From: Heliocybe sulcata | Lineage: Eukaryota; Basidiomycota; Agaricomycetes; Gloeophyllales; Gloeophyllaceae | Direction of reading: 5' to 3' | Length of the DNA stretch: 64,000 nucleotides | Assembly: GCA_004369045.1 (NCBI GenBank) | Contig: ML213519.1 | Location: forward strand, 229,060 to 293,059 | Shown: positions 1-21,044 of the stretch, piece by piece | How the letters are laid out: each line of letters begins with the position of its first letter | Position numbering within the stretch: the stretch's first letter is position 1 | Translations under genes and position numbers: made by a program | The notes under the pieces: generated by a model | Seen by the model: only the letters and a program-made list of their open reading frames with translations | Database searches by the model: none | What the model was told of the DNA's origin: nothing

Positions 1-869
1 AAACATTCATCCATGGCCGCCTCCGGCGGCCCCCTCCCCTTATCAACGAGCTTGCGAGCTCGCACCTTGATACCATCAAATCTGAAAATCCAACATTCTG
101 GAACAGCCCCACTCTGATCCATAACTAAGAAATCCTGGTAAATAATGTAGTGAATACACCATAATGGGTGCACTTCGCTTTGCTTTGACTGTGTGTCGGC
201 ACTACCCGCTGTTCTGACGGCAATGCCCGTCGAGTTTGGAACTGCGATGGCTCATGCGGACACTTCGCTGACACCATAAGTAGTACAATACTTCACTAAA
301 ATTCTTAGATGCCACACGGATCTGGCCAAATAGTGATAGTATTTTCACAAGGAAGATCAGAAATTATAAGTTTAATATGATGTAGAAACTTCAATGATGC
401 TCGTCCGCCACCGAACAAGGGCTCGCTTGCTCGGGTATTGGCCACATGAGCCTGTGGTAGGACAATACCGTAGTAATATTCCGGACTTGATCAGGCTTAC
501 TTCTCCACTACTCAATTTCTTAGAATATTCTTGCTAGTATGGTAGTAGAGTGTAAGGCCTGGGTACCTACGGAGGAGATAATTGCCTGTGTTGGGTTTAA
601 ATATATTATTTATACCACCATAGAGGTCTGCGTGAATATTTTCAGGAATATATGGATTGTCTTCGCTTCACCATTAATCGTTTGGTCTCGGCGACACTAC
701 AAACTGTTTTGTTATCGTGGGAAAGGGTAGGTCGCACCACATTTCCGCGCGGATTGAGAATCCTCAATCCTGATTGGCTGTTTGCTGTTCCTCGATTGTA
801 GTTGACTTTGACTCTGCATCCTTTATCTGTGCGTCCTGTACATTACTTCTACACGTATGGACCTATGTT
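1..869. other. Left edge, no gene supported
   Basis: This stretch holds only short unlinked reading frames. The last exon of the dioxygenase-like gene ends at 870, so this is its downstream flank. The first 60 bases are GC-rich and the rest is AT-richer. I see no repeat end or terminal inverted repeat that would mark the edge of a mobile element. Confidence 0.5.
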
Positions 870-3800
870 CTATCCACGTAGTCTTAGTACTGGAATCTGG
901 TTGCGTACAATACTGTTTATTTCATTATTAGCTCGCTCTTTTGTATTGAAGGTATTTCCACTCACCTGTTTATAATTATCCACGCTTTCGGGATGTCCTC
1001 TGCTTGGAAGTTGACGAATCGGTTGCTCGTACGGGATATCTTGAATACTATAAATTCCCCTTTGAATCTAGCGCCCTTGCATTCCCTTGCGATTGATGCG
1101 TTGTGTGTTCTATATCTTCGGCTCCGGTTGTAGTAAAAAGCATATCTCTCGTCCGGGCCGATCGTGTTGGGTATGGGTATGTACCAGCTCGCGTTCACTC
1201 GCTTCGATTTGATTTTACTCGGAAAACTGAAGTGAGTGTCGATGGATCTTGCTACGCTGGTCCGGTTGTCGTTTACGTGATGATCTACCATACTTGATAT
1301 CATTCCGGGTGGTTCTTGAATTGGAATCTTGTAGCATACTATGTGGTTTGTCTATGCTTAGATGTTAGCACGTGGAATGTTAATTATATTATATTGCCTT
1401 ACCGTCGTAGGCATAGTACTCTGTCCCTCGGATGGTGGGGGGGATATGGTGGGGGAAATTGCAGCGATCAGGTCAGCCCTCTTGATATTTGTTCGTACGG
1501 CAATCAGTTTGGGGGATATGATCGATCTGCTTACCAGGATCTTCTTCGCCAAAGGTGGCCTAGAACCTTGATCGCCACCTTCTCCCATGGGTGGTTTGTT
1601 CGTGTTTCCATTACTGGGTGGCTGCAGTTTGTTGTTGTTATTATTCTATGAGTGGCGTTGGTTTTATTCCGTGGTAGTGGTATGGATACGCCCTTTATTA
1701 CAACGCCGACGCTCTTCGTAAGTTGTGTACGATTATGTTATATCTACCCCCGCCTGTTGCTCCTTCTGTTTTCGATCTTTTCCAATCCACCTACAAATGG
1801 CATGCATATCTTGCCTACCTCCTTTATGCGTTCCCGGATCTTCCTTTCGCCTCGTGTATTGATCCTTGCTTTGATCTCTTCCTCTAGTTCAACCCATCTC
1901 GTGCTCACCGGCTTCCGGCCATGCTCTATGCGGATCAGCTCTCTCGGATGTTCGAATGCCTCCCACACCTCGTCCAAGAAGCACAGGAAGGAGTTTCCGG
2001 TGAGCGTAACCAGTATGTCGATAAAAACTCCTTGATCTTGCCAGAGACTATCCTTGCCGGGTTTTCGCGAGTATCCCAACCAAAGACAGAGTATCTTGAT
2101 GACTTCGTCCGAGACTACTTCGTGGCAGTGGTCTCGGTTCTCCCCGTCGTTCACGAGTCTGAGGCGGGTGGGTGGGATGACCGCTTTGCAGTTGTTGGGG
2201 TAGTCCGGTAGGTAGTCTTTGGCGTCGAGATCCAGTTGATGGCTATGGCATTGCGTAAAATGATCCAGTACCTTGTTCACCAGCTGCGTGAGCCAGTTTG
2301 TTCTGTTCTTCTTGAGTACATCTTCGCACGCCTTCCGGCACTGTACCTCCATAAATTCCCATATCTTCCATACTCCCATCATGACACCGTGTCTTATTAC
2401 TCTTCTCGCGATTCCGAGTCGCTTCAGACTGGTGCGTCCTTTCTTGAGCTGGTCCATGATAACTAGAATATCGTTTGCCGTCTGAAGGGTGCGCTCGGGG
2501 CTTCCATCTTGTTTAGTGAATGCTAGGAGTTTGGTGGAAAATACCGCTATTTGAGACGACTTGGGAAGGGAATATGTCGTCGACACATTGGGATTAAGAT
2601 CTATCTCTTCAGCTAGGGAAGCGATGATAGCCTGTAGCGCGTTCCTGTCGAAAATTTCGAGTACGGACGCCTTATAGTCGATCCGGACGCGCGTCGCTAT
2701 AAGCATCCAGTGTAAGTCATTATTATCTAATGGCGCTGTCGTGCGTACCTCCAACTGGAAGCTTCGTTGGTGACTGCTCCTTGCCTTTCTTCGCGTTTCC
2801 CGTCGCATCTTTGTCTACTGGGTTACCTGAATCCATCATTAGATATTAGTATATTGATTTTCGCGTTATCGCGCCTGAGCACTTACCGCGGCGTCTCTTC
2901 TTCTGCCTCTCCTCTGACTCTGAGTATTCCGAATCCTCCGGTTCAGTCACGTGGACGTCTGATTCGGTCTGCCTCTCGCCGTCTTGATTGTGGTCCCCAC
3001 TTCGATCCATGAGAGACTGTCGTTCTGCCTCTTTAAGTGTCGACGTACTTCCTTCTGCATCGCCTGGGATTACACGGCGAGTGTCTGTTTCCTCCTGAAA
3101 GGCGTATCATCCGGTAGCGTCACCTATCCTTTCAGGTCTTGTTTCGATTACGACTTCGCAAATGAGCCGTTTGCGTTTCTCTGTGTGCCTACGTCGTCAC
3201 AGCCATTTATAGAGCAGTTACCTCTTTACGTACCTATTCCTCTTGGTCTCGCGCTCTGTAGGTTCCCTAAGATCTCCGGAGCGCGTGCTACAAATTGCAG
3301 CTCAATTTTACCGTGGGCTATGGAGTTGTTAGTTGATTTACTATGTAGTAAGTTCTGGTTGCGGCACTTACGTCTTGAAGGTATTGTACCTTCAACAGCC
3401 GTTGGACCTCCTAGCAGCAGGCGCTGCCTCCTAACGAGTTTGTCCCATTGAAGGGATATCTGGATAGATTCATCGTCGTCCACTACAAGATGGTCTAGTG
3501 TCAGGTCGTCGTTAGACCCCCGCTCTTTGACTCTGATGTGTGACGCCATGGTGTTTGGATTCCAATCGTAAACGTAAACCGGGCTGAACTTGTTTAGGTA
3601 GTCCAGCAGCGAGCCTAATAGTTTGATCATGTATACGGGGTAGCGCTCGCCACCTACCATATGCCCGTCCGTCATCATATTACTCGGACGAGAAGAGTCG
3701 TGTAGATATGGCGTGATTTCCTGTCGCCAGGCCTCCGGAGGAAGGGCTTGCACCCCGAGCTCGATAGCTGACTTCTTCTCTATCGGCGGGGGGAATAGCG

Positions 3801-5478
3801 ATATGCGGCTTTTCATAATATTGGCCAGGTTGGATCGGTGGTATAGTACTGTCGTCACAGAATAAACATCATCGGGAATTTCGGTCATACCAGGAGGTGC
3901 CGTCGAGGGTGCGCGTCCGTGCAGTCGAAGACCAGAAAATGCTATCGCTGTGGATTTCCGCATCTCGATGAATATGCCGAACTCCAGTAGGAAAAAAACG
4001 CGGGGGTATAGCTGGCCGGTGGATCAGTTAAAGTGACCATGAGCGAGTACGATCCTATTTCGTCGCGAGTGTCCGGATGCGCATCTCCCGCCCTGCCCAG
4101 GTCATCTTTGAGGTGGCTTCCGCTGCCATCTAGAACAGGTTTGGAGACGTTAACCTGAAAGCCTGTCCAGTAATTCTTGTTGTTGGAATGCCCGAGCGGT
4201 GGAATGTTATTGATACATCCTATGTTCTCCAGTAGATCTCTTCTGTCTTTCGGAGCGTGCAGCATAGCTATGCCGCCGTATTCGGTCATCGTCTGTAGTG
4301 TGAAATTAGTACGTGCTTAGTATATGGACATTGATGCGTACCTGGAGTAATTGAACCCTCATGTCCTCGTCAGCCGGTATATCCGGGCGGTGTTTCATAG
4401 TACGCGCTGGGTGAGCGAGAGACCTCGGTCCTTCCAGTGTGTAGCCCATCGAATAGCATCGTTTTCCCTGGTTGTTGGACGGCTTGGGAGTCACGCGCCA
4501 TAGAAGTCGTTCCAGCGCTATACCACCTCGCGGGTGCATAGTGCTGTCCGGAGGATTGTTCGTCCGCTCGATCATGGGCCCCAGAACTTGTTCGGTTACC
4601 TCTGTGAGTCTTCGCTGTATAGAATCATCGGTGACCAGATTGTTGGCCATCATAACATGATGGTCGGTAACCCAGGCCTGAAGGTCATCGTCCGACGGAG
4701 ATAGACTATGGATATCTTCGTGCGTGGACCCCAAGATACGCGTGAACAAAGCGTCTCCTGGTTTTAACTCAACATGACCGCGGTCTGATACGTCAGAGGC
4801 TGAGCGCAGTCCAGAGGGTATATGACGATTGGCACAATCCAGGAGCCTATAGGGACCTTAAGTTGCTGGTAACAGGGACAACGAAAGACTGTACGCACTT
4901 GCTCGCGACCGAGGCGTCTGATACTTCCGACATGACAACTACCGCTCTCCCCCACGGCCACTGCGGGTGCGGGCAGCCCTCGTTCTTGTCGTATATTAGG
5001 TACCGCTCTTGCAATTTACTGATAAATTCTGTGGGTCTGTTCCGAGCGGCGGTTCTGCTGTGTGTTGCCATAACTGACTGGATCACGAGTGTCATCAGTG
5101 GTTATAGCAATATAGGGTCAACTAGCGCACCTGGTATATGCGAATACCTGCAGGGGATGCGTCGGGCAATCTGGTGGGTGGATTGATTGTTTCCTTCAGT
5201 TACGGGTGGTCCACGAAATCGGTGAAGACTTGAAGATTTGGATGTGTCTCGGGCGGTTCGGTCAGATCCCAGACGACACGGGTCATGCTGCCGCGGAAAT
5301 CTAAGATAGTCAGGTACAATTGCCCGGATTCCGTGGCGCTTGTTTCTGGAAATTGGTCTTGCCTGGTTATGGTCAGCGCCGCCCCATCCCGTCGCGACGA
5401 TGTGATTCGTGTCGGAGCTGGTTGCCCTCGTAGCGCGAGGCATGCTACGGACATCGCACGTGCGGGCGGCACTCTGGT
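870..5478 (-). CDS. TET/JBP-type 2-oxoglutarate/Fe(II) dioxygenase, multi-exon, apparent frameshift in core
   Basis: Likely oxidises 5-methylcytosine or a related base in DNA, as fungal TET/JBP enzymes do. Exons, high to low: 5204-5478, 5123-5147, 4899-5077, 4342-4846, 3372-4292, 3230-3317, 3155-3188, 2887-3094, 2749-2826, about 1748-2696, one near 1.54-1.63 kb, 1403-1480, 966-1351, 870-912 (stop 870-872). Introns are about 45-60 bases and phases agree throughout, except for the core offset and an unresolved junction near 1.6-1.75 kb. The core exon shows an HxD iron-binding pair (AHPDTRDE), then SYSLMVTLTD, then FSGLRLHGRAP with the distal His, then a YSVTTVLYHR strand, in the order expected of the family. 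The offset lies at the seven-A run 3992-3998; eight would keep frame. A KR-rich, acidic linker leads to a C-terminal part of unknown function. Fungal TET/JBP genes are known to expand with KDZ transposons; no KDZ transposase is visible here. The family call rests on motif order, not on a search. The 5' end is unresolved. Confidence 0.68.
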
Positions 5479-6626
5479 CTAAATCTTTAGTTATCGTCTT
5501 GATATCTTTGCCTGTGTGTATTCAGGTGTTAGTTGAAGGGATATGTGTTCAGCAATCAGTCGGCGGGATAAACTGTGCGGCATGTTGCAGATGTCGATCT
5601 CGCGTACCTAGAACTTCTGGAAATGAGGCTGTGCTTGCTTCTATATTGATCGGGTGTGCCGCTCGGAACGGTTATGCTCCGCAGTTTTGCTGAGTATACT
5701 ATACGGTGATTGGAGATGGTTCCATCATCAGATGATGTGATACGCCTGGCGGTAGATTCGTCCCATCTCGGTGTATTGAAGCGGGTGCCGGGAGTTCCCT
5801 GCTATCCGGTGTGTTGGAGTGGGTGGCTGAAGATCGCCGTACTTGTTGGTATGAATCGACAAGTTGCAACAGGGTCGTGTATTCATTATATCCGGTAATC
5901 AGGCGGTTCTATCATGCCGAGTTAACGGGAGTGAGTTATATGTCTTTGAATAGCCTGAAACAAACGGGCATTGGCTTAGTGTATTTTTTACTCACTGTCT
6001 CGTCTCTATAAACTTGGTTAACTGAGCTGTATCTTATTATTAACAACCCGATTGAAATGTGCTCTGGTTGCTACAGGGAAAGGGGCTGCGTCCGTATAGG
6101 GGGCAGGCCGGGGAGGCTTGGTTGGAACCGATCGCCGCGTGTAAGTTGCGGCAGATCTATGAACGGAATATCCGGAAGTGATACCATATTTGGTAGTATG
6201 ACGCACATCCAGCTGTGATTTCTTCAATTTCGCTGCTGCATGTGCGTCATTGTCCTCTTTAAGAATCGTGCCGTCCCTCGCGATATTGGATTATTGAACG
6301 CGATTTCTCTCTTCAAGGCCATCAGTTCACAGTTATCCATTTAATGTTCCGCGTACGGTGCAGTTCCTGTCTCTCTCTCTACGTCGGCATATGCAATATC
6401 TATGCGCGTCAGAATCCGTGTAAGAATTCAGTGCTTACTCGGTGTTGATTGGTTGCTGATCTCATGAGCGTACCGGTATCGACGTTGCACAGCCACTCCA
6501 ATCCGGCGTCTTCCGCGGTACCTTAAACATGACTTCTCATCTATATTTATAGCTCATAGGGCGCTTTCCTCGGGTTACGCTTAAATGTGGAATACTTGCT
6601 GTCTGTCTATTCGGACTACAATATAT
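5479..6626 (-). other. Unresolved 5' region of the dioxygenase gene
   Basis: The first secure exon of the dioxygenase gene opens after a splice acceptor at 5479, so N-terminal exons should lie here. Minus-strand fragments that read like coding sequence include one ending near 6018, rich in Pro and Arg (YTRRSVPTKPPRPAPYTDA), and a Lys/Asp-rich stretch near 6240-6280. I could not join them in one frame, so no start codon is proposed. The neighbouring upstream gene stops at 6627. Confidence 0.4.
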
Positions 6627-7858
6627 TTACGTCTCCATCTCTTCTGGTTCATTGTATCTTATATCCAGTCTAGCCAACTGGCACCGCGTATGGACTTCCG
6701 GGTCTTCTTCAGGTCTGGTACTCCACTTGATTGTGATCTGCCTGGGTATGTCTCTTATTTTCTCCGGGTTATCACGGCGTGATTGAGCTGCTGCAGCCTG
6801 TGGGTAGAATAGATGGTGTGAGTGTGACTTTCTAATATGTAGTAGTATGTACTTACGTCTGACAGAGAGCAATCCAGTAGAGCGACCGCACGAAGCAATA
6901 GACCCAATTTGCAGCTATCTCCAGTCGGAATGGCCATAAATGCTAGCTCGACCTCTACTATATCCCCGATACGGAATATGGCGGGGTTGACTCTTGTGTA
7001 CCTATTATCAAGCCAGAAACTCGGTGATAATCACTCTCGAACTGATTGTATCGGATGACTTACATGGCATTTTGGTCGCCTATTTCAGTGACTGAGTAGT
7101 AATTGACTACGTTGTCTGCAGTATGGAACCACGTATCGTCTTGCAACCTAGTAAGTACGCCCCTCGGATCCACCTGTTTGTCAAATGCTATACCACTTGA
7201 CGGATCTAGGTGTCTCTGAGCGGTGAAATATCTGCATGGAATGTCCATGCATGTATATCCTTGGTATTCCGAGTGCATCCAAGGTAGCATCATACCGTCC
7301 TTGAAAGACCGCGACATGTGTCGGTGTATGATGCTAATGCCCTCAGTCACCGACTCCCAGGTTTCAGTGGACAGGCCCGTCAGTTGAACGCTCTGTTTCA
7401 GATACTGTTTCTTGTGCGTCTGTCGAATACTGATATTGCGTTAGCACACAGTCGGTTTGAAGGTCGGACGACACACTATATCGGTTCAAGTTGGGGCGGT
7501 AGGTCTTTTCCGCATAACATTCCTATTACTCTCATGCTGACTTCCTCATAGCTGCCGTCCTCATCGGCGTGATACGTCAATATTTGCATCTTGGGATTTA
7601 AAGGGTTGGTACGTAGGATTGTTCCAAGACGTATGCGGTCTGGCTAATTACCCTGTTATTAGCATAATCCTTCTGCGTGAGCGATCGAGAAGCGTACACT
7701 GTTCGGTACGTTGGCAAGCATCTTCCACTTGATATCTTCCTTGTCCTGTAGGTTTTGCGACCATGTTTTGATTTTTAACTCTAAACAGATGAGCATGGGG
7801 TCGGAATCTCCAGCTATGGGAGTAGCTTACTTGCTGTGTCGAGGTCGTATCCCTCCAT
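6627..7858 (-). CDS. Hypothetical multi-exon gene with IGDIVEVELAF motif
   Basis: I do not recognise a named domain. Exons seen, high to low: 7831-7858 (possible ATG at 7858), one starting at 7780 and ending near 7.70 kb, 7477-7643, 7064-7429, 6857-7001, 6627-6797 with TAA stop. Splice phases agree in the last four exons and two introns carry clear CTAAC/CTAAT-type branch points. The C-terminal half contains NPAIFRIGDIVEVELAF followed by a hydrophobic segment LGLLLRAVALLD. From memory, similar proteins recur as unnamed families in Agaricomycetes; I cannot confirm this. It lies in the same orientation as the dioxygenase gene and just upstream of it. The 7.64-7.70 kb junction is ambiguous between two donors. 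Confidence 0.55.
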
Positions 7859-8169
7859 ATTGAGACTTAGGTTGGTGGGGGATAATCGGGATGGGAGTCA
7901 GCGTTCTCTAACGCAGTGAACGCCTGTGGTATGGCCGTTCCGTACCGTAAACCGCTGCCCGAGGATCCACTCCGTCACCGACCACTGTGATAATTGCGTC
8001 CATGCGTTCCAACTATCGGACTTTCGGCATGTTCTCCCTACTGACTGTGTTATGGTGCGTCCGCCCCACCTACTCCGTGCTCAGACTGACTCATTTGGGA
8101 AACTTATCATTGTGTGGCACATGGTTGTCGATATCCTCGTGTGCAGACAATGATGGTCATACTGTGGAC

Positions 8170-8412
8170 TTAAGATCCGGGCTCAATCGGTATCACAGCA
8201 AGGGCACTTTGCCTGGATACCGTTCTCCGATGTATAGATACGCATTCCCGTGGATTTTCCGGGCGGCTAGGGATTTTGCTAGAAAGGAACTTCCTTGGAT
8301 CCGCGACCTTCACATCGGCCAATAAAGGATAATACTGATCATTATCGATGCCCGATAGCTTGGAATATAGCCACTCATTGTCCGACCCGATACGATAAGC
8401 AGGCCTTATAAT
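8170..8412 (-). CDS. Open coding-like segment, possible 5' exon of the 6627-7858 gene
   Basis: Eighty codons without a stop, with a protein-like composition (SDNEWLYSKLSGIDNDQYY, then PLLADVKVADPRKF). There is no in-frame ATG upstream, and a possible splice acceptor lies just 5' of it. The sequence between 7858 and 8170 contains further coding-like fragments that I could not splice together. It may be the first exon of the gene that ends at 6627, or a decayed neighbour. It faces the plus-strand gene starting at 8459, so any shared promoter would be under 50 bases, which argues that one of the two 5' ends is wrong. Confidence 0.35.
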   Translation of the reverse strand: MIRPAYRIGSDNEWLYSKLSGIDNDQYYPLLADVKVADPRKFLSSKIPSRPENPRECVSIHRRTVSRQSALAVIPIEPGS

Positions 8413-8458
8413 CAAGATGTTTTACGATGTGATGTCCCTCGCTCTCAGTGAATCATCT

Positions 8459-11400
8459 ATGCCTACTCGGTATGCACCCATCTACGCTTCTCACCATACT
8501 CTAACGCCGAATCTTTATAGGAAGTCTGGACGAAAGTCTACGCCTAATACCCGCCTCGGAACGTGAGCAGTTTTTATTACTTATTTGCTAACTTACTAAT
8601 ATCTTTTTTTTTTATCCGTTGATTTTATTGCGTCGCAAAGACCTATTGAGTTGACATCTCATTCCAAGTAAATAACTACATGAATGTCATCGCGTCGTTT
8701 ATTAAATCTGGATTATTATATCTAGGATGCCTCGGAAGGCCGTGCATCAGGATGTGACGGAGCGTGTTCAAGTATCGGAGGATGGTCAAGGGCAGTCCGG
8801 GACTGAGTGCGTATCTCTATTCTTCCATGGAACTACTCAATGAATACATGGCCAGGGAGGAAGTATCTATGAAAACCCCTGCACGTAAGGTGGCTGGCGT
8901 ACGTAAGACGCCGGTCAAGAAAAAGTGAGCATTTAATATATCACGGGTCACTTAGTAACATTTCTATGATAAGGCTGTCTAAGGTAAAGTCCGTGGCGGT
9001 TGTGGAGTCGAGCGATGAGGACCAAGAAGTTCGTGACATAAGTAAACATCGGTTAGTCGATTTCCTATACCTGTTACCACCTCATTTATCTAATGTTCGA
9101 CCCTTCGCTGACCTAGCGGATCTGGATGCAGTAGTTTTGGATGAAGCGCTAGAAGATAAGTCAGTATTGGAGGAAGATGTGTTGATTGTCAAGGAGTAAG
9201 CAACCGCCTCCATGTGATCCTGCTGTATTAATTCCTTTATGATATTCCAGTAAGAAAGCCAGTAATGTGTCGCCTGGCCCAAAGGCTCGTGCAGCTAAGT
9301 CAAGGTATGTATTTATTGAACCTGCGCATTATTATGCTTAATGGCTACATCCATAGTATAAAGTCTAAAAAGGTGGTGTTACCAGTTGGTCGGGGTTTCG
9401 TGAATGAACACCTCAGTCCTGACGCCGAGCACCACCATTAGCAGGTCTATGATCTGACTTCCGAGAACGAAGGAGAGTGCGTTAGACCCAATCATTTATG
9501 TGCTATGGAGGGTTCATATTAATTTTATGTCAGTTTTCCTATGCCTACCCAACTTATCCATGGGACTCCGAAGCGTAAGGAACGTGGTGAATCCAAAGTT
9601 ACCTTCCTGGACGAGAAGATGTAAGTTTATAAGCTTATAGTGTGACGATTGTAAGGTGCTAAACTCGCTCTTATAAGTGCAATCAAGGGAAACAAGCGTA
9701 CCATCCCTAATTCTGACAGTGATGTGGAGGTGGTAACATCTGACATCAAGTGCATATTTTTACGACTTTATATATTTTGGTCTGACACTACATAAAGATC
9801 TTTGGGCGGCTCCAAGGCGGTCGATTCTGCCTTTTCAAAGCCAAAGACATCTCCCAAAAAGTAAGTCACTTATCGTGTGCATGGCATTTATATGATCTAA
9901 CATCATGCAGATCCGTCCCGAAGCGTTGGAAGATCAACACCCCGGTTACGTTCCAGACTACGTCAGCCACACCTAGCCGCACCCAGCAGAAGTTGACTAC
10001 GGCGGTCGAGCCTGTTACACCCACTCCAAAGTAGGTGTCATAATAAATTCGTTAACTAAAATCCAAACGATTCGTCCCCTAGGTCCAATAAGCGTTCCCG
10101 CGTGCTGGATGTGCTTGACGTTGATCCTGAAGATTCCGATGATGGATCTGACGGGGATGCCCGTGACCAGGTCAAATGCGCTCCAGAAGATGAAGGTTCA
10201 GAAGCCGACGTCCTGACTGGCATTGATGTTAATGCAAACCAGGCGGAGGAGGAGGGAGATGAGGAGGAGGAGGAGGAGGAGGTGAAGAGTCAGAGTGGTA
10301 GCGATCAGGAGGATGACGATCGTCCTAAAAAAATGTGAGTAACTGTCATATATCTGTACGGCTATATCCTGAACGTATCCGTATCAGTCACCGTAGTGCA
10401 GATGACACTCCGCCGAAGATAATGTAAGCGTTTTTTTTTTGATTTTTTTTTTGTTTTGATAATATTTGCCAACGCTGATTCACTTTCAGTAGGAGGCTTA
10501 CTCCCGAGGCGTCTACGCCAGTTACGCCGGCAGACGTCTCCAGCCAGGCTGTTCCTGAATCGCCTGGGTGAGTGGTTCTAAAGCCGTAATGACGCTTACC
10601 TGATGTCTGAAAGATCCGACACCGAGGAGGACCCCACTCTTGACAGTCTTCTGGTTGACCCCGACCTCGAGCACACTTATAAGGCACTGCCACGATTACG
10701 CCAGTAAGTACATATTAATTATCGAATCATGATGGTGTTCTTACAACAACAACATAGCATTGTTGAATTGCACCCGTACGGTACTTATCGTACAAACAAC
10801 AACGAGGGTCGTGCATTCTTTGGGGGGTATCGCTACTTCTTCAAGTGCCACAATCTTCCACCCTGCCAGTTAAAAGCGCCCCAGAGGAGGAGCGATCCTG
10901 TCTGTGCCCACGTCCTCCAGAATCTCCAGTAAGTGTATTATTTACTACTAATATATTTATCTAATGGCTTATAGGTTCGTGGAATCCGCCATAGTCTTCG
11001 TCCAGAAGAATACGGCAGTCATTAACCTATCCAGGATTTCCCCCGGCATCCTGTCTCTCTCCAGGGCAAACAGTCCCTACGTATGTATCCAGGGTAGTGC
11101 ATCTCCTGCGCTTTGCGTGTCTACCATTCTGGTGAAAGAGAGTCACATACAGAGACCCATCGCACGGGGACCTGTACAGCTTAAGTACATCTCTGGTCTA
11201 CTGCATGCTGTTGAGTTGGAGCGGTGGTGCAGCGTACTTGGCACTGTTTACAATCAGTTGGAAGGTATTGTGGCGCGCATGTTCGGAGGTGCCATCCAGT
11301 TCAGTACGAACGCCTCACCTGCGTCTGTACGAGATGAAGGTATGGATCGTTAACATATTTATTGATAATCATTTAATTATTATCTTAGGACCCTCTACGC

Positions 11401-11827
11401 CCGCAATCTCTACTGATGCTCCTGTATCGGTGTTTAGTCCAGTTAAAGCCAGGCCAACTCTTGCTGGAAGCTCCAGGGCATCTGGAGTGGCTGAGGCCAG
11501 CGGTGGTGCTAATCTTGATGCCGAGGATAAAGGTGTGTAATTGCGATTCATGATGAGGTATCATCGACCATTGACATGTTTATAGTTCCTATATACGATG
11601 CACGTTTAGGCAGAGTCGACAAGCCGCTCAACTGGGCCAGGTGGATCGACCGGCTGGATAAAGTTGGTTTACCTATGTATTCTTCTGATGAGATCCGGTA
11701 CGGTTCGGTGGCCATGGTGGGTTATACGGTGAACAGGTGGATTCCGGGTGCCGATGCAAAATCTAAAGTCCCGGTATTGTCTCTGAATCTACGCTGGGTT
11801 GTATTGTTGTACAGCCCTCCCATCTAA
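8459..11827 (+). CDS. Orphan 753-aa protein, 20 exons, charged N-terminal half
   Basis: Function unknown. Exons: 8459-8469, 8521-8562, 8726-8806, 8856-8924, 8974-9195, 9251-9304, 9357-9384, 9442-9476, 9534-9620, 9678-9749, 9798-9860, 9911-10030, 10083-10334, 10388-10423, 10490-10567, 10614-10703, 10758-10928, 10975-11339, 11389-11532, 11586-11827. They sum to 2262 bases with no stop, TAA at 11825-11827. The N-terminal half is basic and Ser/Thr/Pro-rich with repeated PKK/KSKK motifs, then a Glu run (10246-10284), which suggests a nuclear, DNA-binding protein. The C-terminal half is globular: a Cys/His-rich stretch (FKCHNLPPCQL ... DPVCAH), a region ending GTVYNQLEGIVARMFGGA, and a tail with WARWIDRLDKVGLPMYSS and LNLRWVVLL. 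Sixteen of nineteen introns are phase 2. It is read toward the Helitron and divergent from two orphan genes. Confidence 0.72.
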
Positions 11828-12251
11828 TAATAGATATGTGATGCGCTTGTCTGAATCAATAACAATAACTACCGTGGATGACGCTTGGTGGAAATGCAGA
11901 TATTTGTCTTCAGCAGGGTGCGCATAAAATAGTCAAATATCATGCTACAAAGGGTAATGTGATTAATCCGATGCACTTATTCAATCTACCGACCCTAATA
12001 TGTGGAATATGGGATACAGTTTTGACATATACCCCACCATACATAGCTATCGAACATACAATATTATGTTGCGTATCTCCCACAGATGGACGCAATCCGA
12101 ACTAATCTGCACCGGCAAAACCCGGACTGTGTACTATTTCTGTTTTTGGGAATTGGCCTTCGACCTTCGGGTAAATTCACCGGCAACTGATCGGTGGCTA
12201 TATATATATATCCCAGATTTCCACCTATGCAGTTTGATCATATATATAGGA
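11828..12251 (+). other. AT-rich spacer before the Helitron reading frame
   Basis: No gene is supported. The stretch contains AT-rich runs (a TA repeat near 12200-12213 and another near 12238-12250). The Helitron 5' end, expected to begin with TC, should lie here or slightly upstream, but no single TC is distinguishable without an alignment of copies. Confidence 0.4.
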
Positions 12252-12351
12252 TTTGTGGCGGTGGCTGAATAATGATGAATGTTCCGATCATCCATTAAGT
12301 CTCCGCCATTCATATTACCTCCCACCCACACATTTCAACTACGCTATCAGA

Positions 12352-15300
12352 ATGCACATGCTACACATTCTCGATTATTATAAGATGGTCTATGACCAGC
12401 TCGAATTCGAGTATACAACAGGGCAATCCTGGCTCTTTACAGAGTACAACAACACGCAGTTCCTGTCGGTTCTGCGTCCCGTTGCGCGGGAAATATATAA
12501 CTCTTGTCTCGTGGTCACTGCATTGTACCTATTGTGCAACACATTGATCATTTTGCTGAGTAAAAAAACTCTAACTATGAGATGCCTACAAACCATGACT
12601 CTAATAACAATGACCTACCTGTCATGCTACAATGCTCTTGATACGGTTATCAATGTCAAAGTGTCTACTAGAGATCTGGATAATTTTACCAGCTTGAGAA
12701 GTCCATCCACTCCTACTATGCCTGGTTGTATACACCGTGATTCCCCTGAAATCATGGACGTTTGTTTATTGTCCGAACAGTACCAGAACCTTGTGAAGTC
12801 AAGCGACACATTATCATACGTAGTTACCAGATATACATATCATAACCCCAGCCAAGCGCTTAATACAATAATTGGGATGTCTAAGGAACGTGATGGTAAT
12901 TATACCGGTAATCAGAGACAAGTTAGCAGAGGTTTGCACAGTCTGAAGAAATTAATATATTTCACAAACCTGATTAGTGTATGGTCGTGGAGACTTCAAA
13001 TTGGTAATGGCATGACACTGATGGTGACAATAGTTACATTATCTATTTATCGGAATATTCTGACTAAGTGCACCTATCAAGGAATGATTATATCTAATAA
13101 AATAAGATTATTGTGTTATAAAGTTACTAATATTCCCTTATTGACTACTGCTATTTTTATTATGATGCGTAATAATGGTTTTCGTAATTTCATACGTTCA
13201 CGGGTAACAGATGGCAACAAAATCAAGGGTTTCAACCTGACATGCAACTATGCTTACCGACATGTTGGAGGAGGTCCACCCGATAAACCTTCCGTTAGGG
13301 CATCTTACCATATCAATAAAATATGTTCGTTTCCTCGTCATATTCCTGATGGATGCGAGACAGAGTCATATATGGGCAACCCACATACACACTTTAAATT
13401 TATTGATTACTGTTTATGGGATGATGCTGTTCATGAGTACGGTGACAATAAATCTGTTATAATATTTGAGTTACCATTGAATGTATTGGTACCCGAGTTA
13501 ACCGGAGTCAAGTTAAAAGAAATAGCAGATTTCCATCATATCCCTTTCGGCACTAGGTGGTCAATTCCAATTTTAAAAGAAGCTATATTATCTCATGAAT
13601 ATACCCGCTGTCCTACGTATCACACAATCTTGTCTCCCTATATTCCAGGCATAGGTTCAAAATATTTTAAATCAATTGCTAAGTTGCTAGATCAAGATGA
13701 GAAGCTCAAATGGACCGCATACAAAAATGGTAATAATAACAGCAGGAAAATGCAAGAGCAAACAGAATTGGAGCCATCTTTCCCTCCGGATTCTCTACCA
13801 AGATCAACTGTCCAACAGATCATGAGAAATTTCAGTATGGACCAGGAATGCTCTAATATTGAGGAAGCCGGGTGTGGGGTTTGTGGAATATTGTATCCCG
13901 TTTTATCCATGTCTAATCTCAAAGATTTTCAGCAGTATATGCATCTACTGTGCATTGAAGACAGAGTTGTATCTAGGATAGAGCGTACAGATGCCTCGGA
14001 TTTAATAAGGCCCTTCACCGGACCTATACTCGCTACTGATTGTGACAAAATATGTCCTGACTGTGTTTTGAGTTTGAATAAAAGTGAACGACCGACTCAA
14101 GCACTGGCCAATGGATTGTGGTTAGGTAATGTACCAACCAGCTTGCAGGAGCTTACTCTAGCTGAGAAGATGCTGGTGGCCAGGGTGCGACATAATAGAT
14201 GTGTTGTGAGAGTGGCTTCAGGTGGCCTAAAGATGCGCGCCAATGCTATCATGTTCTCGAACCCAACGCCCAAAATTTATGATGTGCTACCGCCACCAAA
14301 ACAGGAGATGGATGAAGTATTGGCCTTTATCTTTACGGGGCCTACGCGACCTACGGAAGAGGAATTCCGTAGAACACCAATGCTTGTAAGTCACAAGCGG
14401 GTGACTGCTGCCCTGGAGTGGTTGAAACTAAACCATAGTGATTATCAGGATCTAACTATCTCATATGAAAATATAAAAGAATACAAGGATAACAGTATTC
14501 CTGTGGTTATGAGTTATCATCAAAGCAACAACCCTACAGGTGATAGCCTAGGAAAAGGTTTGGATTTTGACGGTAATGATCATGGTACCCAAGCGGGATC
14601 CTGCCCCTTAGTAGTACATGGCGTAACTGGCTCAGACCTAAATATTAAGAGTATTAAAGCTCTCAAGGCAATCGCTATGAAACATCTCACCAATACAGGT
14701 AAAGTGCTGGCAGTGGGACATGCGGATCAACCAGAGTCGATATATAATAATCCTCAGTTATATCCACAGATGTTTCCATGGTTATTTCCTTATGGACTTG
14801 GAGGACTTGGTAACAACAACGGCTACCGACCCATTCCAGAGAAAGCCCATAAAAAGTGGCTATTAATGTATTATGATAAGCGTTTTCAGCTTGATCAATA
14901 TTTCCCAATTATTGCATTCAACCAAGAACAGATAAAAGCTAGTACTACTGGTGGATTTTTAGTTGCCGAGCGCAACTCATTTGATGACATCACACAGTGA
15001 CTTCTTTCGATAGACAAGTCGACGCTATCACGGTTGGCATCCAGAATGGCTGGTGGAGAGAGTGTGCACCCATACACCGAGGAAGAAAAGATATGTTTCC
15101 AATTACTAAATGACTTGGACTTAGTAGGTGGCCACGTTGATGGCTCACTTACCAATAAAAAATTCATGCGTAATGAGATATGGTCACTTATAGCCTATAA
15201 AGGAGCACCATCATGGTTCATTACATTCGCGCCAGCAGATGTTCAACACCCAATATGCCTATACTATGCAGCAACAAAACAAGAGTTCAGACCTGAAATA

Positions 15301-18300
15301 CTGCCGCATGATGAGCGTGCCAAGCTAATAGCTACTAATCCTGTTGCAGGTGCACAATTTTTTGACATGATGGTAAAATTATTCATAAAAGATGTTCTGG
15401 GAATAGGATCGGATCAACCTGGATTATATGGTGAATCTTCTGCTTACTATGGAACTGTGGAACAGCAAGGTAGATTGACACTGCACCTTCACTTACTATT
15501 ATGGATTTCAGGCTCTCTAAGCCCCCAAGAAATACGAACTAATATGATGGATGTCAACTCAGCATTCCGACAAAAGATGCTTGAATATCTAGAAGGAGCT
15601 CATCAAGGGCATTTCATAGATAAAAATTTAAGTGAAGTGGAAAATGATGTCAAATTCGCTGAGAGTGACCCCCTTTACAAGAATCCGACGCAGACGCTTC
15701 CTGACATACCTCCTGTGCCATGTAATCATTCAAGTGATCCACAATGCCCTAGATGTGATACGAGTAACAAGTGGTGGATTAAATTTAAAGGCACTGTCAA
15801 TGACCTACTTTATAGATCCAATATACACAGTTGTGGCGATCATTGTCTTGTGAATGGGGTATGTAAAGCACGGTTCCCAAGACCAATTATACCACAAACC
15901 ATAGTAGATGACAATGATGGATCAATACAGCTCAAGAAGTTAGAAGAAAGATTGAACACATTTACGCCTACCCTAACATACCTACTCCGGTCCAACTCTG
16001 ATGTAACCAGCTTACTATCTGGAACGGCCTTGAAAGCTGTGGTGGCATATGTTACTGATTATATCACTAAGACCCCACTCAAGACATATACTATTTTCCA
16101 AACTATCAGAGATGTATTTGATCGGCAGTCTACAATGTTAGGGGGCAATCTAAGAGAACAGGAAAAAGCTAGAAAACTACTTACTCAGATTGTAAACTCC
16201 CTCTCAGTAAAAATGGAAATTGGAGCCCCTATGGCCAGTGCTTATATCCTTGGTAATCCAGATCACTATACAAGCCACAGGTTCAAGAGCGTATACTGGA
16301 AATCTTATGTAAGCGAAGTATTAACATCATGGCATAGCGACGAACTTGTTGAATTATCCACAAATACAAAAGTAAACCCCAAAGACCAAGTATTGGTAAG
16401 GAGAACCCGAGATGGATATACAATGTACTCGCCTGTAATGGACTACACACACCGTTCGCATAAATACGAAACAATTTGTCTGTATGATTGGTTCAGATTA
16501 TCGAGGAAATTACCACTATCCAAAGTGAACAATAGTAATAAGACTGAAGACATAAAAATCGATCGAAAACAAGACATCAAAGGTCTAGTATTTACTGCAG
16601 GCCATCCGCAACAGAGCTCCCATTATGCTACTTTAGTATCAGAGACATTTGCCCTCGTACCCAACTTTATAGGTGGTAATCTTCCGAGACAAGACAGTGG
16701 AAGTAGGGAATTTTACTGCATCACAATGCTCACACTTTTTAAATCTTGGCGTAAAGGTACTGATCTGAAAAAGTTCAATGAATCTTGGGATGAGGCTTTC
16801 AGTAATTTCAGGTTTTCCACCAGACAAACACAACTGATGTCTAACTTTAATATCCGATATGAATGCTATGACGCACATGATGACTATTCCAAACAAATAA
16901 AGAATGGGATTATACCAGGTATGCCCACTCTACACAACAAAGAGTTACTATTACGAATGGGTATTCAGAGTGACCAAATAGATGACATGTATGACAATAT
17001 GAATTTTGTGGAACATCCTGACGCAGCAGAATTCGGTCAGATAGGGAATAAGGCAATTAAACGACTCAGACAAATGGAGGAAATGGAAAGTGTATTAAAG
17101 GGGTCAGGTTGGATGGACAAATGCCAGGATATTTCCAACTTCATTTTGCCTGATGATATCAATATTCAAACCAGAAGTAGGCAGCAATGGGTGGAACTTA
17201 TCCAGTCTAGACGTAATGATGTACTGCAACAGAAAGATAATGACAGGATTCAACCAAATATAACTGGACTTTCAGGAGCCCTACCGACTACTGACCCGAA
17301 TAAAGTAAAGGTTGTGGACAAACGTTATCTACTAAAAACATATATAGCTGAATTACCATCAGTTGTTGACTTACAATCATCAATAATCAACAAATTCTCG
17401 TTGCGTCCCCAACAAGAGAGAGCCTTCAAAATTGTATCTAACCATGCATCAATGCCTCAAACAGAACAGTTGATGATGTATTTAGGTGGTATAGGTGGTA
17501 CCGGCAAATCTCAAGTAATAAAAGCACTGATTGACTTCTTTAAATCCAGGAATGAATCCTACAGGTTTCAAGTCTTAGCTCCGACAGGTTCCGCAGCAGT
17601 GATTGTGGGAGGATCAACCTACCACTCTATACTTGGTGTAACAGATATCAATGATGCTATAAATAAGTCTAACTCCAGTCAAGCAAAAATACAAGGTAAA
17701 TTAGAAGGTGTCGACTATATATTTATAGATGAAGTTTCTATGGTTAGCTGCTATGATCTATACCGTATATGTGCCCAGCTTTGTAGAGGCAAATCAAATG
17801 TTGAAGATCCCTTCGGAGGTGTCAACATGATATTATGCGGAGATTTTGCACAACTGCCGCCTGCGATGAATAAACCACCACTCTATAGTCATACTGTAGG
17901 AACAAATCCTGGTCCAAGAATGTCCCTTATGGCTCAACAAACAGCTATTGGGAAGGCATTGTGGCATCAATTCACAACAGTAGTCATCCTCCGTGAAAAT
18001 ATGAGACAAAAATCACAAACACATGCAGATACTAAATTACGCACAGCATTGGAAAACATGCGTTACAAATCTTGTACAGAAGATGACATCCAATTCCTAC
18101 GCACCAGAATTGCAGGCACCGGACCCGATAGACCAAAGTTAGCACAAAGCAGATTTCGACATGTATCAATGATAACAGCTCGAAATGCTCATCGTGATAA
18201 AATAAATATATTAGGGGCCAAGCAATATGCAGAAGATACCAACCAAATTCTCGTAGACTTCTACTCCGTTGATAAGTGGAAAAGCAGCTCTCGATCCATG

Positions 18301-20085
18301 TCACGTAAGAAGGCAAAGCAATCAAAAGAGCTGAGATCTTCTGAGATCATTGATGCTCGTACCCAAACTATTTTGTGGAACCTACCGCACAATGACTCAT
18401 CTCACGTCGCCGGCAAATTATCCTTATGCAAAGGGATTCCTGTCTTAATAAAAAAGAATATAGCCACAGAATGCTGTATTACCAATGGTGCTGAAGCCAG
18501 GGTCGTATCATGGCACAGTCATGTTGAAAATGATGTAAATATATTAGACACCCTATTTGTGGAACTCATAAACCCACCCACACAAGTGCAACTAGATGGC
18601 TTACCGTTAAATGTTGTTCCCATAAACAGAGAGAGCACTGATATTGAATGCAAAATGCCCAATGATGCAATCGAAAAGATTGTCAGACAACAAGTACCAA
18701 TCTTACCCAACTTCGCAATGACTGACTACGCTGCACAAGGCAGGACCAGGACAAACAATGTTGTTGACCTCAACAACTGTGGGAGTCATCAGTCATATTA
18801 TACTTGTATATCAAGAAGTTCATCTTCAGAAGGCACAATAATAGTACAAGGTTTTGATCCCAAGCAAATCATGGGAGGTGCCTCTGGATACTTAAGACAA
18901 GAGTTTCGAGAATTGGAAATATTGGATCACATAACTGAACTACGTTACAATGGTAATCTACCCGATCATATCGATGGACACCGTAGAAATACCCTTGTAC
19001 GAGCCTATCAAACATGGAAGAAGGATGAATGTCCTGCAGGCGTGCATGCTGCAATTAGATGGAGTAAGGACAATCCCTTCAAACTATTAGAGGAAATTAC
19101 AGATGCCCCATGGATGATAGTAACTTCGAAAGGCCCCAAAGTTGATGAATTGAGACAGCTGACCAAGCGCCCTGACACTGACATTTATAACAATTTACTC
19201 ACAGGAACAGATAGACCGGACAAAATCACACATGGAACGGGCATCACAGCAAGCCCGTCACAGCAAGCCACTGAACCAAAGGGATTTATTTGGGCTTCAA
19301 CTTACAGCTGTGCTTATGATGCAATGCTTAACGTGATATATAACATATGGTCAGAGAATACCCCGAAATGGTCACGTAGAATGAGACTTAATGAACACAT
19401 GAATATCCTGGTAGCTGCATTTGAGAGGACCAAAGAACCCCAAACCACTCTTGAGGATGCAAGGGATGAACTGCGTGTACACCTCAACAATTACAATAGG
19501 ATGAAGTTTCCCATGCGTAGGGGAGCTGGAACAAGTGTTGTAGATTTATGCGAGACACTTCTTGCAACAGAGTCCATGGGAACCGTGACGTCGATATGCA
19601 CCAGGTGCAATAATAAAATCGAAGTGCCAATAGATCAGCTGATGTTCAGCTGCTACAGAAATTCGAGAAGAAACAACCTTCAGGAAGCACTTTCCCATTC
19701 GGTCAAACAATGGCTAAAGACAAACCTGGACCGCAACGGTACTTACCTGGGAGTCAAATGTTGTAGAACTAACATAAAGAGCATTTCAACACTGGAAAAA
19801 CTTCCAAGGATAATCGCTTTTCATGTGGAAGAAACGGGCTTAATACCAGATAAATCATTCAGTTTAACAGTAGAAAGAAAAAGATGATATCACCTCCGAG
19901 GCCTAATATACTTCGGTGACTATCATTTCACATCCAGATTCATATCCAAAGACAAGAATATCTGGTTCAATGATGGTATGAGGAATTGCACCTTAGAGGG
20001 TAACTTAAGAGATACCAGTTTAGAATCACTACTACGAGCGGGAAATAAAACAGTAACACTGGCTATATATTCGGAAATAATTTAG
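12352..20085 (+). CDS. Helitron Rep/helicase protein with USP-like C-terminus, two in-frame TGA
   Basis: One frame runs from 12253 to the TAG at 20083-20085, broken only by TGA at 14998-15000 and 19885-19887. The first in-frame ATG is 12352. Order of parts: an unassigned AT-rich N-terminal region; a SAP-like stretch near 13470-13620; a Cys-rich region resembling DUF6570 near 13860-14300; the Helitron Rep domain with HUH-type HLHLLLW near 15484 and the two-Tyr motif AYVTDYITK near 16046; a Pif1-family helicase with Walker A GGIGGTGKSQV near 17488 and Walker B FIDEVSM near 17725; then a cysteine-protease-like domain with a Cys box TYSCAYDAML near 19300, a CTRC zinc-binding pair near 19600, and a His box IYFGDYHFTSRFI just past the second TGA. 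Both TGA sites could be CGA that lost a C, as expected from deamination at CpG. Confidence 0.88.
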
Positions 20086-20762
20086 GCGACCTCAGGACTC
20101 GAAAAAACATGCCATGCTTGCAATGGCCCTCTTCCACAAGTATTTATGGAGTTATTTTTCACAGTTCATTCAAGTTGGTTATAAAGCCTTTGTTCACAGA
20201 CGCTGCAGTTGATCTGGTGTAAGATGCACCGCATATTGCCACTTACACAAAAGAGAGCAGTTAGCCCCTAGCTTGTACTTGCCAGATCCAAAACATAAGA
20301 ACTCCTAAAAGATATCCATAAACGGGAGGTGGAAGCGCCCAGCAAGAGAAATTTCAAATGATCACCATAAATAGTAGAAAAACATATATCGAAATGGTAA
20401 TCTGAGCCCACTAAGGCAATTGCCCCTGTTGCCCAGGAACGAAGAGAGTCCATACCACTCAACTGATAACCGATTCTTGGGGAATCGGAACTTGTGTAGT
20501 CAATAACAAGCAGCGCTCTAGAGACATGCAAGCAGCCAATCAGAAGCCAGGAACCCCGGACGACGCGGAATCGTGTGCGCCACATTGGTTCCCACAGTAA
20601 GAACCAAGTTACTGATCCACCAATGACAAAAAAATCCACAGGACCCATCTCAGACAATGTAAAATCATCAAAATATTTTCAGATATCATCACATATGTGT
20701 AGATGATATATTTGAAGTCTCAGGAAGAAAGAAGAAAATTTCATGGAGCCAGAAGGAGAACA
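20086..20762. other. Helitron 3' flank up to the gap
   Basis: No gene is supported. A minus-strand frame at 20268-20657 has no recognisable domain and lacks splice context. The candidate Helitron right end lies at 20217-20271. Confidence 0.4.
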
Positions 20763-20822
20763 NNNNNNNNNNNNNNNNNNNNNNNNNNNNNNNNNNNNNN
20801 NNNNNNNNNNNNNNNNNNNNNN
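20763..20822. other. Assembly gap (60 N)
   Basis: Sixty unknown bases between the Helitron and the duplicated LURP-one/lipase block. The true distance and any Helitron target site or repeat boundary here are unknown. Confidence 0.99.
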
Positions 20823-21044
20823 GTATTCTCGGCAAAGATTCCCACGGGCTTTGAGGTTCGGCACAGGCACGAAATTTTATCTGGATAAAGACGCCTCCTT
20901 CGTAAACTCAGGACTCGTAACATCCCTTTCGTTGCAAGGATGGTACGAGCAAAAGAAACATGAGGGAAGTGCTTCACATGTAACAAAACAAGTATAGACT
21001 GCTAGACATGCGGATGATATAACTGGATTATAGGGCCCAATGGC

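Follow-up and report, generated by a model that had tools for sequence, protein, structure and literature searches.

The stretch of Heliocybe sulcata DNA under study (64,000 nucleotides, C17:229060-293059; hereafter the window) holds near its left end the remnant of a large Helitron2-like rolling-circle element and, inside this element, a putative TET-like dioxygenase gene of the 2-oxoglutarate- and Fe(II)-dependent (2OG-Fe(II)) class, two orphan genes (C and B), and the RepHel frame. A search of the genome (31.6 Mb, 51 contigs) with the translated window exons yielded matches at eight other loci, i.e., nine copies of the oxygenase gene with the window included, which we label C17 (the window), C5a, C5b, C5c, C8, C9, C48, C1, and C3. 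Both HPD and FSGLRLHxRAP were present, in this order, in all nine copies. Because the exons match eight loci and the motifs are kept throughout, we regard the open reading frame as a gene and not as a product of chance.

The gene and its copy in the window

To locate the exons, translated pieces from all six frames were compared with the C5a paralogue, and splice sites were checked for the first exons. A sequence-only reading of this DNA had described a many-exon gene at 870-5478 with an HxD pair, SYSLMVTLTD, and FSGLRLHGRAP in order and with agreeing phases. The motifs are where it saw them (minus strand, 4079-3907), but the phases do not all agree, as the frame breaks once, at 3998-3992. Its extent had to be redrawn as well: conserved coding starts near 5071 and the gene runs to about 965, and the first exon proposed earlier found no match in the C5a paralogue at an E value of 0.01. 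At the site of the frame break, a run of T, the C5a, C8, C9, and C48 copies read through; the C5a copy keeps a single frame there but has stops elsewhere, and in C9 and C48 the entire catalytic part is open. The window element thus combines a 5′ truncation, a frame break in the oxygenase gene, and a stop in RepHel, and is a dead member of its family. This last stop, a TGA at 14998-15000, lies upstream of the Helitron_like_N and PIF1 domains; of seven other copies examined, five were readable at this position, and all five read through.

The gene lies inside a Helitron

The limits of the element were set by DNA searches of its own genome. On C12 and C13, empty-site paralogues carry the flanking repeat across both sides with 36 bp between the homologues of positions 594 and 20141, and therefore one block was inserted. 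Short elements on C9 (76 kb), C12, and C10 join the left region to the right end, and their left part extends ~240 bp past the homologue of position 596, up to a terminus TTACGAGTCCTGAG. The window copy probably lost this 5′ terminus along with 36 bp of target sequence. CTCAGGACTCG, close to the 3′ end, is an inverted copy of the 5′-end sequence TTACGAGTCCTGAG, and asymmetric terminal inverted repeats are described as a mark of Helitron2 (PMC5148889). Genome-wide, we counted 137 sites of the 5′ type (positions are listed for the first 100 of these) and 60 of the 3′ type, against 1 and 0 for reversed-pattern controls. Only at the 3′ end was a hairpin observed; a 5′ end is missing from the window copy. 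As in Helitron2, the Rep and helicase domains share one frame, in which we take the motifs to be HxH at ~15481, YxxxY at ~16048, and Walker A at ~17494.

The other copies of the gene showed the same arrangement. In all eight, the gene runs antisense to the element, and its catalytic region has a 5′ terminus at a distance of 2.0-4.1 kb, recognized from the exact motif in seven cases and from a DNA match in C48; by chance, 0.009 oriented 5′ terminal sites per copy would be expected. Because the copies share descent, the eight cases are not independent evidence. A search with the exact pattern found a correctly oriented 3′ terminus for C8, C9, C5c, C1, and the window; a diverged form was recognized for C5a and C5b, and none was seen for C48 and C3 in exact-pattern and own-genome searches. 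The gene is consequently enclosed by both termini in six other elements, which measure ~18.5, 19.0, 20.8, 21.8, 22.5, and 26.7 kb (lengths are approximate, with some ends set by hand from the loci), and inside the window element by the empty-site evidence.

RepHel occurs in the same element in six of the nine cases (C17, C5a, C8, C9, C5b, and C5c). C48 holds part of the RepHel N-terminal frame beside an unreadable stretch, no RepHel was found in the C1 element, and the C3 contig runs out. The order oxygenase gene, orphan C, orphan B is common to seven elements (C17, C5a, C8, C9, C48, C5c, and C1), in six of which parts of RepHel come next after orphan B, C1 being the exception. Orphan C also appears at the end of the C3 contig, and neither orphan was found in C5b among the matches listed (21 rows for B and 22 for C, E values up to 0.001). 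The conserved parts of the two orphans gave no Pfam match below an E value of 0.2, and the start of orphan B near 8727 is a guess. The accessory block with two orphan genes and a Helitron, as described in the sequence-only reading, is thus real, but the gene is not next to the Helitron: by the ends, the empty site, and the terminal motifs, it sits within it (596-20141) and is tied to the element more firmly than previously thought. The earlier remark that the 64 kb hold no KDZ transposase was borne out, with no KDZ match anywhere on the window's contig.

Table 1. Features of the Helitron2-like element and its surroundings in the window.
Feature	Position	Strand	Basis
Left half of host repeat at insertion	96..594	.	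98-99% copies on C12, C3, C13
Remnant of Helitron2-like element, truncated at its 5′ end and with an intact 3′ end	596..20141	+	Own-genome matches, empty sites, short derivatives with the two ends joined
TET-like 2OG-Fe(II) dioxygenase gene (putative)	965..5071	-	Exon matches to C5a, nine genome copies
Conserved exons of the oxygenase gene	5071-4899, 4846-4342, 4292-3372, 3317-3234, 2730-1747, 1351-965	-	Match to C5a; other small exons uncertain
HxD motif (HPD), putative Fe(II) ligands	4071..4079	-	Kept in 9/9 copies
SYSLMVTLTD	4052-4023	-	Located in window
Frame break in oxygenase gene, T run	3992..3998	-	C5a, C8, C9, C48 copies read through
FSGLRLHGRAP	3939-3907	-	Located in window
Distal His of FSGLRLHGRAP, putative third Fe(II) ligand	3919..3921	-	Codon position follows from LHGR at 3924-3913
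Orphan gene C, conserved cargo antisense to RepHel	6854..7826	-	Matches in seven other elements, none outside such elements among matches listed
Orphan gene B, conserved part, sense with RepHel	10759..11824	+	Matches in six other elements, none outside such elements among matches listed
N-terminal part of RepHel frame (DUF6570)	12250..15000	+	Ends at in-frame TGA, 14998-15000
RepHel: Helitron_like_N, PIF1 helicase	15001..19887	+	Profile matches
3′ copy of asymmetric terminal inverted repeat CTCAGGACTCG	20091..20101	+	40 bp before element end
3′ subterminal hairpin GCCATGC..GCAATGGC	20111..20127	+	Fold; conserved at other 3′ ends
Right half of same host repeat	20142..20494	.	Continues in C12 and C13 copies

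Several further Helitron ends were observed. Short elements with the terminal motif at both ends form a large population on many contigs, with pairs ~530-620 bp apart (e.g., C1:123858-124434 and C4:261756-262286). In the window, another 5′ terminal region of a Helitron occupies 20494-20922 in reverse orientation, with TTACGAGTCCTGAG on the minus strand at 20920-20907; this region, partly an N run, recurs at many places in the genome. Next to the C5a element (C5:149314-168308), another Helitron 5′ terminus in the same orientation lies within 40 bp, at 168347. At the left edge of the window, positions 1-95 are a short repeat with 14 other matches at 79-100% identity, which ends exactly where the repeat at 96-594 starts.

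The predicted protein

The gene had been read as a TET/JBP-type dioxygenase. What stands of this is an oxygenase-like gene with an HxD and a distal His; the TET/JBP identity does not, as no profile match rose above the cut-off. The expected significant TET/JBP match failed to appear, with none over the curated cut-off for the window protein, and neither the window exons nor the protein matched any curated Pfam family. In profile scans of eight relatives, a single one (C5c) matched PF12851, at an E value of 0.068 (12.8 bits versus a cut-off of 34.9; residues 23-83 against positions 88-146). In this match, the His of HxD falls at about column 90 and the distal His at column 141 (computed from the match ends with no gap assumed nearby, although the matches do hold a few gaps). 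The same two columns apply to C37 and C5:598k, two of the three PF12851 hits in the genome that stay below the cut-off. The HxD and the distal His are thus in the right order and in apparent register with PF12851, while a profile comparison of the oxygenase family with the C37 and C5:598k hits was not significant. In TET/JBP enzymes, an Arg after the distal His serves 2OG; here, invariant Arg residues stand two before and two after the distal His, and none was recognized at the usual distance.

Structure predictions with AlphaFold2 were weak, with a predicted local distance difference test (pLDDT) score of 33.8 for a long construct and of 43.9 for the catalytic exon (predicted template modeling score 0.43). 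Using the weak catalytic-exon model, a Foldseek search against the Protein Data Bank (PDB) returned 2OG oxygenases in the first 41 rows, many repeating a few proteins, with a best E value of 3.4e-3. Against a viral library, the best match was a 2OG-Fe(II) oxygenase (E value 3.4e-4), and 19 of the best 50 rows were named 2OG/Fe(II) oxygenase or prolyl hydroxylase, most others being unnamed and some unrelated. By sequence, the oxygenase family had no PDB match up to an E value of 10. These model-based matches indicate that the protein likely belongs to the 2OG-Fe(II) oxygenase class. TET-like chemistry is plausible; membership in TET/JBP is not established, and the fold evidence does not single out TET.

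Selection and possible exchange

The oxygenase gene is under purifying selection. Between the window and C5a, the proportions of nonsynonymous and synonymous differences (pN and pS) were 0.15-0.26 and 0.72-0.84 in the catalytic part (three segments of two exons) and 0.21 and 0.81 in the C-terminal exon. The ratio of nonsynonymous to synonymous substitution rates (Ka/Ks) was 0.31 for C9-C48 and 0.54 for C5b-C3, the latter with few changes, and for RepHel, it was 0.06, 0.25, and 0.08 in three pairs.

The catalytic-region tree and the RepHel tree agreed in part, with C5c (C5:705698-728232) placed differently: its RepHel groups with C9 (support 95) and its oxygenase with C1, C5b, and C3 (support 100), which suggests an exchange of cargo between Helitron lineages. 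Among RepHel copies without the oxygenase gene (TET-less), C23, C11 at 747 kb (C11_747), and C6 form one clade beside the TET-bearing C5b. In a fourth, C11 at 626 kb (C11_626), the RepHel start is missing and no oxygenase gene was detected; its RepHel is the one most closely related to that of the window (83%).

Decay at CpG and CpG content

The element copies decay mainly at CpG, a pattern typical of DNA methylation. Across four copy pairs, transitions in CpG context reached 0.10-0.18 per site versus 0.005-0.022 at other G/C sites: 30/165 versus 33/2390 for C23 and C11_747, 90/666 versus 36/1609 for C9 and C48 (4.5 kb around the gene), 40/342 versus 4/798 for C5b and C3, and 9/92 versus 2/345 for a pair of short elements. 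For two pairs of the flanking host repeat, the counts were 1/36 versus 3/187 and 2/36 versus 5/189. Of the stop codons logged in the copies, 19 of 27 were TGA (some counted twice from overlapping loci, and some intronic). DNA methylase profiles matched over the cut-off at four host loci.

CpG content also differed between elements. The observed/expected ratio of CpG (CpG O/E) in RepHel was 0.56, 0.47, 0.48, 0.48, 0.61, and 0.43 in six TET-bearing elements, against 0.27, 0.26, and 0.21 in the TET-less clade, and was 0.48 in C11_626, at a G+C of 0.39-0.41 in all TET-bearing and TET-less copies compared (the fragments C11:735690 and C44 and the 29%-identical C1:1711842 were left out). Over 1506 shared codons, the synonymous NCG/NCN ratio was 0.046-0.086 in five TET-bearing elements (C5b was left out for its length), 0.041 in C11_626, and 0.009-0.026 in the TET-less clade.

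Within the window element, CpG O/E was 1.03-1.14 over 596-6595 and then 0.54-0.58 over 14096-20095. CpG and G+C both follow a steep gradient along 596-20141, host-like at the oxygenase end and CpG-poor over RepHel.

A proposed role for the cargo and its alternatives

With moderate confidence, we propose that the family is a Helitron2-like element with a long-standing antisense TET/JBP-like dioxygenase as cargo, which would oxidize 5-methylcytosine on the element's DNA and counter CpG silencing and decay. In this scheme, a large rolling-circle transposon (~18-27 kb) would carry the oxygenase gene just inside its 5′ end; the 2OG-Fe(II) dioxygenase made by active copies would work on methylated cytosine in DNA as TET/JBP enzymes do; silencing at CpG and C-to-T decay would be lessened because 5-methylcytosine on element DNA is oxidized; and RepHel would move the element. 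The Fe(II)/2OG chemistry is suggested by the fold search of a weak model, and we infer 5-methylcytosine as the substrate and the protection of the enzyme's own element. A bolder version, which we put forward only tentatively, is that this HxD-type enzyme falls outside the published PU, AG, and PE types and is an anti-silencing module guarding its own CpGs, that its loss in one clade roughly halved the CpG content, and that orphans B and C are further parts of the module. Two points limit the case for a protective role: the CpG difference is a single contrast on the tree, for which age or lineage could account, and C11_626 is TET-less yet shows no drop in CpG, a misfit unless its 5′ part was lost recently.

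Rather unlikely, in our view, is that the cargo is some other 2OG-Fe(II) oxygenase, such as a protein hydroxylase, that does not act on DNA bases and has a role unrelated to methylation. The PDB matches from Foldseek, which are prolyl hydroxylases and oxygenases of small molecules and include no TET among the best 50 rows, fit such an enzyme, as does the lack of a TET profile match above the cut-off. However, the sole oxygenase family in scans up to an E value of 10 was Tet_JBP (one member, the C5c match), with both ligand columns apparently in register, and the PE-type TET/JBP proteins of fungal transposons are reported to be equally hard to detect by sequence, with an HHpred e-value of 1.4 to CMD1 (PMC12730594).

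The preferred reading of a TET/JBP-like cargo that serves its element must also be set against mere hitch-hiking of a captured host gene without function for the element. Helitrons are known to capture genes, and the TET-like exons, unlike RepHel, resemble the host in G+C (0.52-0.54) and CpG O/E (1.02-1.16), but purifying selection over a near-saturated synonymous distance, the same place and orientation by the 5′ terminus in eight other elements, and the order with two orphan genes common to seven elements make such a passenger improbable. Last, the gene might have been moved by a transposon of its own or by a KDZ transposon nested in the Helitron, in line with the reported association of fungal TET/JBP genes with KDZ and other transposons (PMC12730594). 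This we judge very improbable: of the nine copies, a single one is on a contig that also has a KDZ match (11 such places, drawn from 21 rows), and the two lie 262 kb apart, and in short derivatives, the 3′ end of the gene is joined to the Helitron 3′ end.

Comparison with known systems

The sequence-only reading had held a base-modifying enzyme on a rolling-circle element to be new, a claim now superseded because Kojima 2025 (PMC12730594) describes fungal Helitrons that carry TET/JBP genes, of the Helitron1 type in Puccinia graminis and Pezizales and of the Helitron2 type in Agaricus bisporus. That account defines PU, AG, and PE types, with HxE as the PE hallmark, and proposes an escape from silencing by methylation. 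No further report of a TET-bearing Helitron stood out among the papers listed, as judged by title and the opening of the abstract.

The closest parallel is A. bisporus, likewise a mushroom fungus whose Helitron2 contains a TET/JBP-like gene (PMC12730594). By elimination, we place that gene in the PE type, whose proteins are described as very remote from known TET by sequence; PE is defined by HxE, whereas the Heliocybe family has HPD (HxD) in all nine copies. The elements of P. graminis and Pezizales likewise carry a TET/JBP gene but are Helitron1, while the Heliocybe ends show the asymmetric inverted repeat described for Helitron2. HxD is shared with the transposon-borne AG-type TET/JBP genes of Kyakuja/Zisupton and with CcTET, which has a solved structure and is given as a close relative of the AG type (PMC12730594); the Heliocybe family, by contrast, has neither a match to a PDB sequence up to an E value of 10 nor a linkage to KDZ. 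The FoHeli Helitron2 elements of Fusarium oxysporum (PMC5148889) likewise have asymmetric terminal inverted repeats, with the 3′ copy ~20-40 bp before the end as in the Heliocybe element, and nonautonomous derivatives, but FoHeli1 and FoHeli2 measure ~5-6 kb, against 18-27 kb with three extra genes in Heliocybe.

Transposon-borne demethylase-like enzymes are thus already published, with protection of the carrier given there only as conjecture (PMC12730594). New here are the CpG-centered decay of the copies and the RepHel CpG content of about half in one TET-less clade. In Heliocybe, a rolling-circle element has retained the oxygenase gene through large divergence, at one position and beside two orphan genes. 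Because one genome contains related Helitrons that either have or lack the gene at the same G+C, and because CpG content is about halved in one gene-less clade, the carrier-protection conjecture can now be tested.

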